From the IMG/VR virus record IMGVR_UViG_3300010396_000076, positions 1 to 35,729 of that record: a stretch of DNA of 35,729 nucleotides, one strand, 5' to 3'. The DNA is from a virus. A model generated the notes under the pieces. It saw only the letters and a program-made list of their open reading frames with translations. It made no database searches and was not told the DNA's origin. Position numbers and translations under genes: made by a program. Shown one piece after another: positions 7,998 to 32,554 of the stretch. Within the stretch, counting starts at the first letter, position 1; each line of letters begins with the position of its first letter.

Positions 7998-8019
7998 GCG
8001 GGCATTTTGGGATGCCCGC
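7998..8019. terminator. Bidirectional intrinsic terminator
   Basis: GCGGGCAT-TTTGGG-ATGCCCGC forms a perfect 8-bp stem with a 6-nt loop. On the plus strand it is followed by GATTTTGTT, on the minus strand by TTTCTTG. It separates the micropeptide gene from the convergent minus-strand operon ending at 8031. Confidence 0.85.
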
Positions 8020-8030
8020 GATTTTGTTAA

Positions 8031-8189
8031 TTAACCATCTGAAAAAGTACTCATTACAAATACGCCTGCTGCCGATACTTTAACTTTTTTCAATGCTTCT
8101 TCGATATCCTGCACAATAGAATCAGTATCATTACTTCTTCCACCTGACATATAACCTGCTAGCCAATATACAAATTGTTCTGGATTCAT
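8031..8189 (-). CDS. Small hypothetical protein, 52 aa
   Basis: Starts in an ATGA overlap with the stop of the NAMPT-like gene and is the last gene of that operon before the terminator. The product MNPEQFVYWLAGYMSGGRSN followed by an amphipathic helix (DTDSIVQDIEEALKKVKV) resembles the short 'F-x-Y-W-L-x-G' proteins common in phage operons. No function is known for them. Coupling to the NAD-related genes could be significant or coincidental. Confidence 0.6.
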   Translation of the reverse strand: MNPEQFVYWLAGYMSGGRSNDTDSIVQDIEEALKKVKVSAAGVFVMSTFSDG

Positions 8190-9835
8190 AATATCTCTCC
8201 GTCCTTATAAACTAATTTCAGCTCATTATCTGACTGCCTGAATTGATCCCAAGTTTGATTCTGTAATACTGTGAGAGAATCCCCATCCTTAACAACTTTG
8301 AGAATCCCTGAGTGGCTTTTCTTCGTGCCGTCATCAGTGATCGGATCTTTTGTGATCGCCTTACCTATGTCGTTTATTTCGCAATAAGTGGCCTTCATTG
8401 CCCAGCCAAGCGTATCTCTTGTGTTATATTGATAAGTGTATGAACCAATTCCAAATACGACATTCGTAGAAGCAAAACCTTTAGCTCTAAGTCTCTCGCA
8501 GATGTCACCGCATCTTTCCAATGTAATGGAATCTCCATAGATAACCCCGATATGCTCATCCAATTGTTTAAACCCTTTTGAATTGATTTTTCCACCGAAG
8601 ATTTCCCAGAGGAGTTCGACGACGCCTTTTTGTTGCGGTGTTAAAGTTATTTCTTTGGTTTCTTTATGATTGCACGAATCTACAACATAAAAGCGCTTGT
8701 CAAATCGATCATGAGCAATCTCAAAAGTTATCTCATAAACTCTAGTACCGACTTTAACAATGCGAGTTATTTCATCATCGCCAAACATATCTTCGCCACA
8801 TTCATCAGAGGCTTGATCATGTGCATTATCTTGCGCCCATCCAAGAGCATTTTCTAGCGCATCAAATTCTCGCACGGGGATACCGCAGAGGATATCAGCA
8901 GGATCACCAGAGTCAGGGCGAATAACAAGCTTACCATCACGAGAAAGTATTTCTGTTCGCAATATAGGCAAAGTATTAGTAATGACATGCCACAAATCCC
9001 AAGTATCGCTGACGATAGAAAGAATGCCACGAGGGTAAATTTCAGTAAGTAAACGGCGATAAGTTCCCAGCTCATCTTCTTTTCCTCCTGCTGACATTAC
9101 TGAATGTTCGGTTGCTGGAACCGATGCTATGTGAAAATCTTTACCATAATATTCTTTATTGAAAAATAAAGCTGGAATCGTATCCGTACCTTTAAAATAC
9201 TGAAGATGAGCCATGCCGCTGATGCAAGCTGATTCCACCGAGTTCATACCACGGAAAGAAAAATCATGCGCTTGATAATCAACGAACTCTGGCATATCAG
9301 AAGTTTCTTGCGCGTACTTTTCAAGTAATATGCGGTACTCTCGGGCAATAGTCGCAGAAGTACAGGCACCCCAAAGCGTACAGCTCATAAGAGTTTCTAA
9401 GTAATTCGGCAACCAGTAAAAATCAGGATGAGTGTTAAACATAACCAGCGCTGGAGTTCCACATGGAACAATCGAGCCTTCTGGAAGTGCATAAATTTCA
9501 ATCGGTAGATATCCTAATTCATGCAGTTTTGCAATGTGCTCGCAGTGCCTATGATCACCAAGAGTTTGTCGCATCAATTCTTGATATCCGTAACCTTCAT
9601 TGGTATGGACTTTATCGTGATTTAATTCAAGCCGATGGAAAAAATCAAGCGTGAAGCTTTCATGCAGATATTTTTTAAGGAAATATTGCAAACCAAAAAA
9701 TACTGAGTGATTAACTCTAGGCATTCGAGATTTGCGCGGCGTGAAGTTACTGAATATTAAATTTGTACCTTCTGGGTACATACGGTGATGTGAAGTTTTG
9801 TAAAAGTCAGCCAAGTAAATAGGATTAATTTGCAT
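8186..9835 (-). CDS. NAMPT-family transferase (NadV- or Namat-like), 549 aa
   Basis: Nicotinamide phosphoribosyltransferase family. Family residues are all present: D10-x-Y12-K-x-x-H (substrate-entry motif), R195 in FRGMNS, D218 in GTDT, catalytic His244 in VPATEHS, D277 in VSDTWD, R306 and D308 in IRPDSGDP, and D435 in IYGDS, then FGIGSYTYQYNTRD. It is longer than human NAMPT (491 aa) mainly because of a roughly 75-residue insertion (about 325-400) between IRPDSGDP and the IYGDS segment. A classical enzyme joins nicotinamide to PRPP to make NMN. The homologue Namat of the phage NARP1 pathway instead joins nicotinamide to ADP-ribose pyrophosphate, giving NAD+ directly. The gene overlaps the Prs-like gene by 11 nt and no NMN adenylyltransferase is in the window, which favours the NARP1 reading without proving it. 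Confidence 0.92.
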   Translation of the reverse strand: MQINPIYLADFYKTSHHRMYPEGTNLIFSNFTPRKSRMPRVNHSVFFGLQYFLKKYLHESFTLDFFHRLELNHDKVHTNEGYGYQELMRQTLGDHRHCEHIAKLHELGYLPIEIYALPEGSIVPCGTPALVMFNTHPDFYWLPNYLETLMSCTLWGACTSATIAREYRILLEKYAQETSDMPEFVDYQAHDFSFRGMNSVESACISGMAHLQYFKGTDTIPALFFNKEYYGKDFHIASVPATEHSVMSAGGKEDELGTYRRLLTEIYPRGILSIVSDTWDLWHVITNTLPILRTEILSRDGKLVIRPDSGDPADILCGIPVREFDALENALGWAQDNAHDQASDECGEDMFGDDEITRIVKVGTRVYEITFEIAHDRFDKRFYVVDSCNHKETKEITLTPQQKGVVELLWEIFGGKINSKGFKQLDEHIGVIYGDSITLERCGDICERLRAKGFASTNVVFGIGSYTYQYNTRDTLGWAMKATYCEINDIGKAITKDPITDDGTKKSHSGILKVVKDGDSLTVLQNQTWDQFRQSDNELKLVYKDGEIL

Positions 9836-10655
9836 ATACGTCTGAGACCTCTAATTTTCTATTTGGTAAGTAAGAAAGATTTTGATAGGAATTTGTGGTT
9901 ATTATTTTATCGAAATATTCATAAATTGGTGCTAAGCCTTTTGTGAATAAACCGTGCGTGACAATAAGATGAAGTGGATTTTTCACATTCAAAATATCTC
10001 TCAAATATTGAGCTTCAGCAATGAAAGTACCACCTCCATCACAGAGATCATCATAGATAATGATAGGGTGATCTTCTGGGATTGACTTGATTAATTTTTG
10101 GCAACCTTCATCTAATGAAATATTAAAAGATCCATTCTTTCTTTTTTTGGAAAATGCTGCATGATGTCGTTGAAGAAAATCATATCCTTCCAGTTCCAGA
10201 ATAGACTTATCACCGGCCACTAAAGCACTATCAATAGACGTGGTCATAACTAAATTCTGCAACATGCTATAAGACGTTGCACCACAATAACCAGCAGAAA
10301 TATAGTTGTGCGCCTGCATAATTTGAACTGTAGGAACTTCAAAAGATTTAATCACCTTTCCTAGGACATCCCGCATGTAGTTAGGTTCGCCAGGATTAAA
10401 TGCCCTATCTGATCTCAAACCAAATAAATATTTGAAATCTATTGACCAAATATCAAAGTCGTTCTTTCTCAATGCAGCAATAAGACAAGCCAATATTTCT
10501 AAATCTATCCAGTTTTTTACGCAGCATTTGATATAGACTTTACTTTTAACATCGAGTTTTTCTAAATCTAACTTAACGGAATGTTGTCCGTCAGGATATT
10601 TGATTATTTCCGCATTAGTAATTATGTCATCTCTAAAAGTTATAAAATTACTCAT
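9825..10655 (-). CDS. Prs-like pyrophosphokinase (PRPP or ADPR-PP synthetase), 276 aa
   Basis: Phosphoribosyltransferase-fold protein of the ribose-phosphate pyrophosphokinase (Prs) family. A PRPP-loop-type motif IIYDDLCDGGGTFI lies at residues 199-212, FGLRSDRAFNPGEPNYMRDV (78-97) matches the ATP-binding flexible region in which Prs has 'RQDR', and KKRKNGSF (170-177) replaces the canonical KRR segment. QAHNY (114-118) stands where Prs has DLHA. At 276 aa it is shorter than typical Prs (about 310). In NARP1 this family member (Adps) converts ADP-ribose and ATP into ADP-ribose pyrophosphate; a canonical Prs would make PRPP from ribose-5-phosphate. The 11-nt overlap with the NAMPT-family gene shows they work together. 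The divergent substrate-side motifs are compatible with the larger ADP-ribose substrate. Confidence 0.82.
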   Translation of the reverse strand: MSNFITFRDDIITNAEIIKYPDGQHSVKLDLEKLDVKSKVYIKCCVKNWIDLEILACLIAALRKNDFDIWSIDFKYLFGLRSDRAFNPGEPNYMRDVLGKVIKSFEVPTVQIMQAHNYISAGYCGATSYSMLQNLVMTTSIDSALVAGDKSILELEGYDFLQRHHAAFSKKRKNGSFNISLDEGCQKLIKSIPEDHPIIIYDDLCDGGGTFIAEAQYLRDILNVKNPLHLIVTHGLFTKGLAPIYEYFDKIITTNSYQNLSYLPNRKLEVSDVYAN

Positions 10656-11401
10656 TCCACAATTCTCCAGTTAGTCGCCAATATTTCTTGCTGGTTAGGT
10701 GTCCAAGGATAGAGTTCATCATTGACAGTTCTAACCATTAAGCAAGCTTGACAATCTTTATCTGAGTCTCGTAACCACACATAAATATCATCGCGATGCC
10801 AGCGTCCAATTTTATAACCTTTTCTCATAGCATCAATTGCTTCTCCAAAATTCATATCTATATCTTTTGCTGGTCTTACTTCTTTAAATTCTTTCTCTGA
10901 ACCTTTTAAATCGATGTCAAAACCTTCTACTTTATCTTTTAAATCGCCAAGGTCGGATTGTATCACTTTAATGAGATCAACTAATTGAGCATTTTGTTTA
11001 CTGGTAAAATTAATTTCTTTTAGGAATGCTCTTTCTAAAGATTCTATTCTTTCAGCCCAGTGCGAAGGGATTTGTTCTATTGATTCTCTTTCTAGTTTAT
11101 TAAGCCTTGAAAGCATGTCGACATGAGCTGATTTATGACATTCATTATCCCAATTATATGGTTCTATTTTTTCGATTCTATTTCTCAAATACACAAGCTC
11201 AGTCTGAAGATCTTCTACTAGAGTTTTAACAATTTTATTCTGATTTGAATCAATCGTGCTTTCTAATAATGCTATCCTAGTATTTTGAGCGAAAATTTTA
11301 TTTTCTATTGTACATAAAGAACATTCTTGCAATGCTGGATTAATTCCATGATCACAACTTTGGTCACGAAGCCTTTTACAAATTTGGTTTTCTGTGCTCA
11401 T
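10652..11401 (-). CDS. Tad2-like (DUF2829) domain protein with coiled-coil extension, 249 aa
   Basis: ATG 11401 has AAGGAG 7 nt upstream and is chosen over the longer frame to 11491. Residues 183-249 are a DUF2829 domain, now linked to Thoeris anti-defence 2 (Tad2): MNFGEAIDAMRKGYKIGRW at the start, then IYVWLRD, then WTPNQQEILATNWRIVE. Tad2 proteins are known to bind and sequester cyclic ADP-ribose signal molecules. The N-terminal 180 residues are unusual: a Cys cluster (residues 16-30, CDHG...ECSLC) and several coiled-coil helices, so this protein probably oligomerises or tethers the sponge domain. It ends in an overlap of 4 nt with the Prs-like gene, in one operon with the NAD+-restoring pair. 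Whether it binds a signal nucleotide is inferred; DUF2829 domains of unknown function also occur. Confidence 0.75.
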   Translation of the reverse strand: MSTENQICKRLRDQSCDHGINPALQECSLCTIENKIFAQNTRIALLESTIDSNQNKIVKTLVEDLQTELVYLRNRIEKIEPYNWDNECHKSAHVDMLSRLNKLERESIEQIPSHWAERIESLERAFLKEINFTSKQNAQLVDLIKVIQSDLGDLKDKVEGFDIDLKGSEKEFKEVRPAKDIDMNFGEAIDAMRKGYKIGRWHRDDIYVWLRDSDKDCQACLMVRTVNDELYPWTPNQQEILATNWRIVE

Positions 11402-11402
11402 T

Positions 11403-12485
11403 CTATTCTCCTTTTTCTTCTTCGGAAACTTCAACATCCCTTTGCTCAAAATCAAAAGATAATGCATTTGGTTCAAGATTATGTAGCTCACCCAGAGCCA
11501 TATCTTCTGCTTCCTCTTCTGAACTTGCTAGATAAGATCCGCTGGCGCTAAATATTCCAGATATTTCAACAAAAAAATATTTCTTTCCATCGCTACCCTG
11601 AATGGAATTTTTTTGTTCTATACTTTCCACTGATCGCATTGCAAAGTTTTTATCTTCTTCTGCCCGTTGTTTCTCGATTTCTAGGAGCTTTAAAAAGTTA
11701 ACTCTTTCTCTATCTCGCTCTGCTTTCTCTTGAAATTCTTTCTTCATTTTCAGTTCAAGCTCTAAGTCAGCTAGGGCTTTTGCTTCGGCTTCTAGTCTAT
11801 TTTTCTCTTCCTGTTGTTTTCGAGCAATGTCTGCCAATCTTTCATTTTCTAACTCTTGCTCTCTTCTTTTTTGCTTGATAATTTCTTGCTCGGCTTCACG
11901 TTGCCGCTGTTCTTCCTCGCGTTTCATTTTGGCGTCAAATTCTGCGATTGCTTTTGCTTCTAAATGCTTGGCATATAATTGTGTGAATTCAAGAATATTA
12001 TTCTCAAAATCATCCTCAGACATTTTCTGAAGATTGTCATGAGTTACTAAAAGTGTACAATTTCCATGATCATAATTTGCCTGCCATTGCTTTCCATCAA
12101 ATATGAATTCAAGAGCAATCAATTTATCAATCCGCAATTGTGTTTTGAGCTTTAATTCAGCTATTTTTTCCTGCTTGATCCGTTCTATTTCAGCGTCAAT
12201 TGCTTTTTCTTGGCTATGTAAGTGAGTTTCAATAGGATCAAGTAAGCCTGTTATTCTCTTAGCTTCACTATTAATTTTTTGCTGATGTCGAAGCGCATCC
12301 TCAGTTAATTCTTTACGGCGTTTATCCACTTGTATGCGCAAGGATTTAACGTGCTTCCTGGCTGTTGATACAACTTCGTACCCTTGTTTATCTTTAACGC
12401 CATCAATCTTTAACAGCATATAAGTTTGATTTAGTTCATTTATAGCATTTTCAGTAACACCCCACTCTATAATTTCTTGCGTCAT
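11403..12485 (-). CDS. Coiled-coil protein resembling DUF1351, 360 aa
   Basis: ATG 12485 has GGAG 9 nt upstream; the longer frame to 12587 has a non-coding-like start. The N-terminal 110 residues (KIDGVKDKQGYEVVSTARKHVKSLRIQVDKRRKEL, then AKRITGLLDPIETHL) resemble DUF1351-type phage proteins that accompany RecT or ERF recombination genes. Residues about 190-310 are one long charged coiled coil of Glu, Lys and Arg. The C-terminal 60 residues form a small domain (KKYFFVEISGIFSASGSYLASSEEEAEDMALGEL). It is the first gene of the operon that holds the Tad2-like, Prs-like and NAMPT-like genes, with 1 nt before the next start. RecT is on the divergent operon. Confidence 0.65.
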   Translation of the reverse strand: MTQEIIEWGVTENAINELNQTYMLLKIDGVKDKQGYEVVSTARKHVKSLRIQVDKRRKELTEDALRHQQKINSEAKRITGLLDPIETHLHSQEKAIDAEIERIKQEKIAELKLKTQLRIDKLIALEFIFDGKQWQANYDHGNCTLLVTHDNLQKMSEDDFENNILEFTQLYAKHLEAKAIAEFDAKMKREEEQRQREAEQEIIKQKRREQELENERLADIARKQQEEKNRLEAEAKALADLELELKMKKEFQEKAERDRERVNFLKLLEIEKQRAEEDKNFAMRSVESIEQKNSIQGSDGKKYFFVEISGIFSASGSYLASSEEEAEDMALGELHNLEPNALSFDFEQRDVEVSEEEKGE

Positions 12486-15325: not shown

Positions 15326-15398
15326 GGAAAGGTAACTCAGTCGGTAGAGTGGAGCACCGAAAATGCTCTGGTCGGTGGTTCGAGTCCATCCCTTTCCA
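15326..15398 (+). tRNA. tRNA-Phe-like (GAA), with C at position 33
   Basis: All four arms fold: acceptor GGAAAGG/CCTTTCC, D-stem ACTC/GAGT with loop AGTCGGTA, anticodon stem GAGCA/TGCTC with loop CCGAAAA, variable TGGTC, T-arm GGTGG-TTCGAGT-CCATC. Total 73 nt, discriminator A, no encoded CCA. The anticodon reads GAA (Phe). The loop has C where nearly all elongator tRNAs have U33, which would weaken the U-turn, so decoding ability is uncertain. Confidence 0.75.
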
Positions 15399-31846: not shown

Positions 31847-32554
31847 ATGAAAGACAATATTTGTACAGTTGATGATTGCACTGAAGTTGTTCGAACAAGA
31901 GGATTGTGCAGGAGTCATAATTGGAGAATGAAGGTGCATGGATCTTACGAAAAACCAATCAGATCAAGAAATGGAAATATCTGCAAAGTTTCTGATTGTG
32001 AAAATCCCCGAGACATCAAACAGCGATCTAGCTTATGCACAATGCATCGAGTTAGGGTATCGCGCCACAAATCAACGTCTTTACCAAAATCAACGAAAGA
32101 AATCTTGCCAGAAGGAATAATAAAAATATGCATCCATCATGGAGAATTAAAAGAAAGTGATGTTTACAGAGTAAAAGGAAAATCTTGGATTCAGTGTCGA
32201 ATTTGTAGAGTAGTTCGAAGTGAAAATCTCAGAGATAGCCGACCATCTGGATTCAAACAAACTAGAAATTTCATATTTATTGGAGGAAAAGGAAATTACT
32301 TAAAATTATCTGTCACAGATTATGAGGACATGCTTAAGCAACAAAATGAATTATGCAAAATATGTAAAAAACCTGAAACTATGCTCTCTAATGGAAAAAC
32401 AAAAGTATTAAAAAGACTGGCAATTGATCACTGCCATAAAACTGGAAAAGTAAGAGGCCTATTATGTCATCGCTGCAATACTGGAATAGGTGGATTTTAT
32501 GAATCACCAGAATTATTACAATCAGCAATAGACTATCTAAAGGCCTCGCAATGA
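31847..32554 (+). CDS. Zinc-finger plus endonuclease VII protein, 235 aa
   Basis: The C-terminal ~95 residues are a recombination endonuclease VII (His-Me finger) domain: DYEDMLKQQNELCKICKKP, RLAIDHCHKTGKVRGLLCHRCNTGIGGF, YLKAS. This contains all four zinc Cys (C-x2-C and C-x2-C) and the active-site HCH motif. The N-terminal part carries repeated zinc modules (ICTVDDCTEVVRTRGLCRSH, ICKVSDCENPRDIKQRSSLCTMH) plus a third Cys pair (CRICR). Such genes are mobile homing or accessory endonucleases. It lies on the opposite strand to all of its neighbours, inside the structural module. Confidence 0.85.
   Translation: MKDNICTVDDCTEVVRTRGLCRSHNWRMKVHGSYEKPIRSRNGNICKVSDCENPRDIKQRSSLCTMHRVRVSRHKSTSLPKSTKEILPEGIIKICIHHGELKESDVYRVKGKSWIQCRICRVVRSENLRDSRPSGFKQTRNFIFIGGKGNYLKLSVTDYEDMLKQQNELCKICKKPETMLSNGKTKVLKRLAIDHCHKTGKVRGLLCHRCNTGIGGFYESPELLQSAIDYLKASQ

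Follow-up and report, generated by a model that had tools for sequence, protein, structure and literature searches.

A Tad2-like domain encoded beside a predicted NAD+-restoring gene pair in an uncultured phage

Thoeris TIR proteins make an ADP-ribose signal from NAD+, switching on an effector. The locus described here raises the question of whether a single phage operon could both remove such a signal and repair the NAD+ pool, as an original prediction had proposed for a gene with a Tad2-like domain and its two NAD+-related neighbours. The DNA analysed (hereafter the window) is one virus record of 35,729 bases, which is without end repeats and probably incomplete, and whose predicted portal, scaffold, major head, head-closure and DNA-ejection proteins suggest an uncultured short-tailed phage. 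The record also carries a tRNA-Phe (GAA) gene at 15326-15398 (+).

On the minus strand, five tightly packed ORFs lie head to tail at 12485-8031 (Table 1), with junctions of, in order, +1, -4, -11 and -4 nt, and by its anatomy this unit is an operon. The gene in question encodes the Tad2-domain protein, P0001. The stop of the 360-aa gene lies 1 nt ahead of its ATG, an AAGGAG motif is found at 11408-11413, 6 nt ahead of that start, and the gene overlaps the Prs-like gene by 4 nt (ATGA), as had been noticed before, suggesting translational coupling. The Prs-like ORF directly adjoins the Namat gene and overlaps it by 11 nt. For the 52-aa ORF that ends the unit a family match was not found, and the ORF upstream of the operon, which is divergently transcribed and repressor-like by eye, gave no Pfam match.

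Table 1. Features of the operon and its surroundings, in window coordinates.
Feature	Position	Strand	Remarks
First operon gene, 360-aa coiled-coil protein, function unassigned	11403..12485	-	phrog_16469/phrog_1376
Tad2-domain protein P0001, 249 aa	10652..11401	-	ATG start at 11401
Helical, partly coiled-coil extension of P0001 (predicted), residues 1-182	10856..11401	-	AF2 and heptad test
C-terminal Tad2-like domain of P0001, residues 183-248	10658..10855	-	PF11195; alpha-beta-beta-beta-beta-alpha-beta fold
Prs-like protein, 276 aa, candidate Adps (first NARP1 enzyme)	9825..10655	-	phrog_619, 99 bits
Namat (nicotinamide ADP-ribose transferase), 549 aa, second NARP1 enzyme	8186..9835	-	phrog_448, 604 bits
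Namat signature GSYTYQYNTRD, residues 464-474	8414..8446	-	exact fit to GSX-phi-X-phi-X-phi-TRD
Small last operon ORF, 52 aa	8031..8189	-	overlaps Namat stop by 4 nt
Terminator-like hairpin GCGGGCATCCCAAAATGCCCGC	7998..8019	-	strong; 3' of last ORF; reads as hairpin on + too

The NAMPT-like protein, which matches PF04095 and PF18127 and has 9w5x/9w5w as its best PDB matches, is a Namat by its signature and contact residues. Namat is defined by the motif GSX-phi-X-phi-X-phi-TRD (2026 structure paper, PMC12774641). In an alignment to 9w5x, the numbering of which is that of PMC12774641, the NAD+-contact residues correspond as follows (solved/window): D13/D10, Y15/Y12, R40/R37, F189/F192, S190/S193, R192/R195, D215/D218, R306/R306, D308/D308, G360/G434, D361/D435, G390/G464, S391/S465, F392/Y466, Y396/Y470, T398/T472, R399/R473 and D400/D474. 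The residues kept contact nicotinamide, ribose-phosphates and adenine in the solved Namat, while the substitutions at contact sites are A362 to S436 and F392 to Y466. Based on the signature and these contacts, the NAMPT-like and Prs-like proteins would be the two NARP1 enzymes, Namat and Adps. Together with the phrog_619 match of the candidate Adps and the tight gene packing, this upholds the claim that P0001 shares an operon with an NAD+-restoring pair. The Adps activity of the Prs-like protein is what we infer from sequence: a phrog_619 gene is present in 18 of the 20 Namat-type records tested, the window protein is only about 25-43% identical to the other Adps found, and the literature yielded no sequence signature for Adps substrate specificity (ADPR versus ribose-5-phosphate). 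When genomes were scanned with the close Namat clade, only three distant matches came back.

Two further features of this gene family were observed. Residues ~319-400 of the window Namat (window about 8630-8880) form an insert of some 80 aa that the protein's nearest relatives do not have; Bacillus phage KLEB27-3, which matches over the full length, suggests that the insert occurs in some distant members. In another locus (L077:9119-9289) Adps looks truncated to 56 aa beside an intact Namat with the signature, perhaps a natural, PRPP-using Namat without Adps.

At the C-terminus of P0001, profile and structure comparisons agree on a Tad2 fold. Residues 183-248 match the Tad2-like family PF11195 at 45.3 bits (E 1.3e-11; 48 bits in a further scan; curated cut-off 25 bits), and the match spans the whole profile (1-73 of 73), so that the domain originally proposed is found where it was predicted. 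A profile built from canonical Tad2 domains of other phages only also recovers the domain, in two blocks (183-211 and 219-248, 26 bits), and the PHROGs matches are two families that both have the Tad2 domain C-terminal. AlphaFold2 modelled the domain alone, from 41 sequences, with a pLDDT of 91 and a pTM of 0.76. When this model was compared by Foldseek, the best 24 PDB matches were all Tad2/AcrIIA7 (E 6e-6 to 8e-4), with a probability of 1.00, a TM of 0.86 and TM by query of up to 0.87 to solved Tad2; they include apo and ligand-bound Tad2 (8wje, 8smf, 8smg, 8v3e, 9eib), and among the nearest are SPO1 Tad2 with gcADPR and ModTad2 with His-ADPR. Tad2 structures were again the leading matches of the full-length model. 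Close relatives of P0001 and P0002 were not found in IMG/VR.

The fold is thus modelled with good agreement, and the question narrows to the ligand pocket, which we judged by sequence against the geometry given in a review (PMC12043709). There, gcADPR is held between two protomers, one contributing the beta1-beta2 loop, the loop beta3-beta4 and strand beta4, and the other the beta1-beta2 loop, the beta4-alpha3 loop and alpha3, while a cyclic-dinucleotide site lies in the beta2-beta5 insertion (PMC12043709). The second half of the pocket is kept in P0001 (RTVNDELYPWTPNQQEILATNW versus KTADNKIHAWVPSQTDVLAEDW in SPO1), with beta4, the PW.PxQ loop and the last helix following RT..(D/E)..PW.PxQ.(E)ILA..W. 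The beta1-beta2 loop is altered, reading R--WHRDDI versus the canonical RxGWNGKxM (RSGWNGKNM in SPO1); GWNGK is present in nearly all aligned canonical members. Also missing is the beta2-beta3 insertion, the cyclic dinucleotide site in some Tad2 members, where about 25 model positions are reduced to 7 residues. The pocket therefore appears only half conserved, and P0001 can accordingly only be presumed to bind an ADP-ribose signal; of the signal removal first proposed, the Tad2 fold stands and the removal step stays presumptive. GWNGK is likewise lost in about half of the Tad2-like proteins of other NARP1 phages (L071, L086, L089, L090, BcoS-136), a shared loss which indicates that a divergent Tad2-like class exists.

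The remaining ~180 residues of P0001 are predicted to be mostly helical, with modest confidence (AF2 helices 3-17, 22-53, 56-79, 87-109 and 113-158; pLDDT about 55-80). The original description as a Cys-containing coiled coil holds for the cysteines (Cys 8, 16, 27, 30 and 88, accompanied by His 18, 89, 93 and 114, with a cluster of C8, C16, H18, C27 and C30), whereas coiled-coil character is statistically backed only in places, the best heptad window being 147-174 (equalled in 4 of 500 shuffles). No homologue of this N-terminus was found by tblastn among the compared loci, and no credible homology was seen to the small coiled-coil proteins upstream of the Adps gene of L002 or to the protein of L071. 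Weak PADLOC matches to IetS and LmuB on the helical part were read as coiled-coil noise.

Known Tad2 proteins had been described as short stand-alone sponges, which proved too narrow. More than 30 extra residues beyond the usual start, counted from first ATG to GWNGK, occur in 19 of 50 complete canonical Tad2 ORFs; coliphage N4 gp49 has 160 aa with the Tad2 domain at its end, and among the BFVD entries are Tad2-like proteins 189-270 aa long. Helix-like stretches precede the Tad2-like domain in L071 (162 aa; a weak 18-bit match, 2 kb after Namat) and in the NARP1 phage G008 (128 aa; 43 bits). N-terminally extended Tad2 proteins are thus common, though a 180-aa helical extension is unusual; the fusion of a long helical N-terminus to a Tad2 domain as in P0001 was found in one genome only.

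The original prediction also implied that other phages would carry these genes side by side, and here the outcome was mixed. Among 158 Namat-family contigs, a set that leaves aside two deliberately chosen named phages, PF11195 exceeded its cut-off in six (G001, G008, G011, G052, G091 and G131; ~4%), usually at least 20 kb from NARP1, so that co-occurrence exists but is low and adjacency rare. Of the six, only G052 (= L181) has its Tad2 close to NARP1: the gene shares a strand with Adps and lies about 3.4 kb upstream of it. L136, which came to light by its Tad2, belongs to the same lineage as L181; this lineage is unrelated to the window phage, and in it Tad2 and Adps-Namat share a strand, with Tad2 lying a few genes upstream. 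In L086 there is a weak Tad2 match of 73 aa roughly 0.7 kb ahead of Adps. In a random control, for which contigs were drawn by an arbitrary 15-mer, 0 of 29 had Tad2, too few to test enrichment, and the six of 158 are therefore no proof of a Tad2-Namat enrichment. A 16.6-bit Tad2 match in G014 was judged unrelated, and a split of NAMPT-family loci into Namat and non-Namat was dropped, as most "non-Namat" loci carry the Namat motif.

G001 (= L002/L168), the nearest phage relative, shares with the window phage 72% identity in the major head protein, 51% in the portal, 50% in head closure and 66-72% in Namat. It carries the NARP1 pair and a canonical Tad2 (86 bits) 23 kb apart, the latter (G001:C1:5779-6033) between the scaffold and head protein genes, and the small genes upstream of Adps differ from those of the window phage. 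Both phages combine the two functions, but with a different gene at a different location.

Several neighbouring genes are worth recording alongside. Canonical Tad2 also lies in a head-gene block near portal/scaffold in G131 (G131:C1:34509-34763), as in G001, a possible insertion hot spot; in the window, an endonuclease VII-type gene (31847-32554, +) separates the scaffold gene from that of the major head protein, inserted in the opposite direction and near the position that Tad2 has in G001. In L181 a NADAR-domain gene (L181:4034-4522, -; PF08719, 161 bits) directly follows Namat and, with Adps and the Tad2 fragment, forms a wider NAD+/ADP-ribose island, and in L136 a DUF4326 gene comes immediately before Tad2. 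RNA ligase genes and a PNKP-type phosphatase (L071:7675-8514, L071:9564-10004, L003:5707-6525, L090:315-1217) lie beside NARP1 or overlap a Tad2-like gene, the phosphatase gene being placed between Adps and Namat; genes for RNA repair and for NAD+ repair appear to be associated.

The combination in one operon had been thought to be without a described counterpart, and in this general form the claim fails. Mycobacteriophage DyoEdafos encodes RyDEP within its NARP1 operon; this enzyme cleaves 2'/3'cADPR, its product feeds Adps-Namat, and it counters Thoeris (PMC13232231). That a single operon can perform both tasks is thus already published. The same authors raise the possibility of enzymes in other sponge families as well (PMC13232231). 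A RyR domain (PF02026) gave no match in the window record, in a search whose control genomes gave none either. In the open-access literature, with its incomplete coverage, we found no paper placing Tad2 in the NARP1 operon slot, and Tad2 on a helical orphan N-terminus in a NARP1 operon appears undescribed in searchable papers. What is new about the window operon is how known parts are combined; the kind of system is not.

The reading we put forward, and regard as evenly poised between right and wrong, is that the operon is a two-layer anti-Thoeris/anti-NADase counter-defence cassette. In the first layer, the Tad2-fold domain of P0001 would capture an ADP-ribose signal of TIR/Thoeris type, so that an NADase or other effector does not fire, with the helical N-terminus probably multimerising or tethering, most likely multimerising the sponge. 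In the second, NAD+ cleavage leaves ADP-ribose, which Adps would phosphorylate to ADPR-PP; Namat would then join this to nicotinamide, rebuilding the NAD+ lost to any NADase still firing. The Tad2 profile and fold, the Namat signature and contacts, the ATGA overlaps and the terminator are consistent with this arrangement, as are the presence of both functions in G001, the position of Tad2 upstream of Adps-Namat in L136/L181 and the RyDEP precedent (PMC13232231). Against it stand the altered beta1-beta2 loop, the loss of the ~25-residue insertion, the co-occurrence in six of 158 contigs with seldom any adjacency, and a fusion seen in a single genome. The two-step counter-defence first proposed is plausible, while a bound signal, its identity and the joint action of the two layers are presumed.

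Other readings fit parts of the same evidence. The P0001 gene could be an independent counter-defence or accessory gene that is co-transcribed with NARP1 by accretion and has no joint function, which is possible but in our view doubtful: the scarcity of Tad2-like genes in Namat-family contigs and their usual distance from NARP1, the different genes upstream of Adps in G001 with its Tad2 in the head-gene block, and the unrelated coiled-coil gene that opens the operon all argue for accretion, while the ATGA overlap with Adps, the retention of both functions by this sister phage and the RyDEP precedent argue against it. It is unlikely, we think, that the Tad2 fold has been retargeted to another small nucleotide or metabolite, such as an ADPR derivative or a NARP1 intermediate, and is no anti-Thoeris sponge of known type. 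The rewritten and shortened GWNGK loop, the lost insertion and the sharing of this loss by about half of the Tad2-like proteins in other NARP1 phages, as a divergent class, would suit such a change, but the well-kept beta4, PW.PxQ loop and last helix of the pocket would not, and the operon context points to ADP-ribose chemistry.

Very improbable, to our minds, is a protein-binding anti-defence factor of the type of AcrIIA7, a family with the Tad2 fold that was deposited as an inhibitor of type II CRISPR; AcrIIA7 (8kbi, 9kzr) does turn up in both the fold and the profile searches with P0001 but scores lowest of the Tad2 matches, and the operon concerns NAD+, with no CRISPR-related neighbour seen. 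Equally a long shot is a more intimate link, in which the helical N-terminus docks the Tad2 domain on Adps/Namat or clusters Tad2 domains, handing captured signals to NARP1, or in which the divergent domain is a hydrolase like RyDEP; we know of no catalytic activity in Tad2.

Should the Tad2 domain be active, the window phage would represent a second, independent phage lineage with signal removal and NAD+ repair on one transcript, as in RyDEP-NARP1, and would support a general rule that phages answer TIR-type defences at the level of the signal as well as of the metabolite. If docking or hydrolysis were true, the phage would turn the host's alarm molecule into NAD+ via a Tad2-derived module. 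Further, the divergent, extended class comprises members of a family annotated wholesale as 'Thoeris anti-defence' and thus bears on the reliability of that label.

Among known systems, the RyDEP-NARP1 operon of DyoEdafos resembles the window in placing an anti-Thoeris signal gene beside Adps and Namat in one operon; its signal gene is a RyR-domain glycosidase turning 2'/3'cADPR into ADPR, a NARP1 substrate, whereas P0001 has a Tad2 domain. The NARP1 of SPbetaL1 and Bas63 (PMC12774641) shares with the window the order of Adps then Namat, their overlap, and the same signature and contacts, and differs in that the window Namat has the extra insert and Adps is divergent. Canonical Tad2 proteins (SPO1 gp34.65, Myroides ModTad2, HgmTad2/AcrIIA7, SptTad2), for which sequestering of a nucleotide immune signal by a homotetramer is a defining property, have the fold and the second domain half in common with P0001, but they are usually stand-alone proteins of ~90 aa with the RxGWNGK loop and the beta2-beta3 insertion, unlike its 67-aa domain, which has neither and ends a 249-aa protein. 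In N4 gp49 and Louie CDS0064 (PHROG 1048, 872), too, Tad2 forms the C-terminal domain of a longer phage protein, with an extension that is usually shorter and of the MTR..YN..RGW..EGYLVEY type, while that of P0001 is long and helical.
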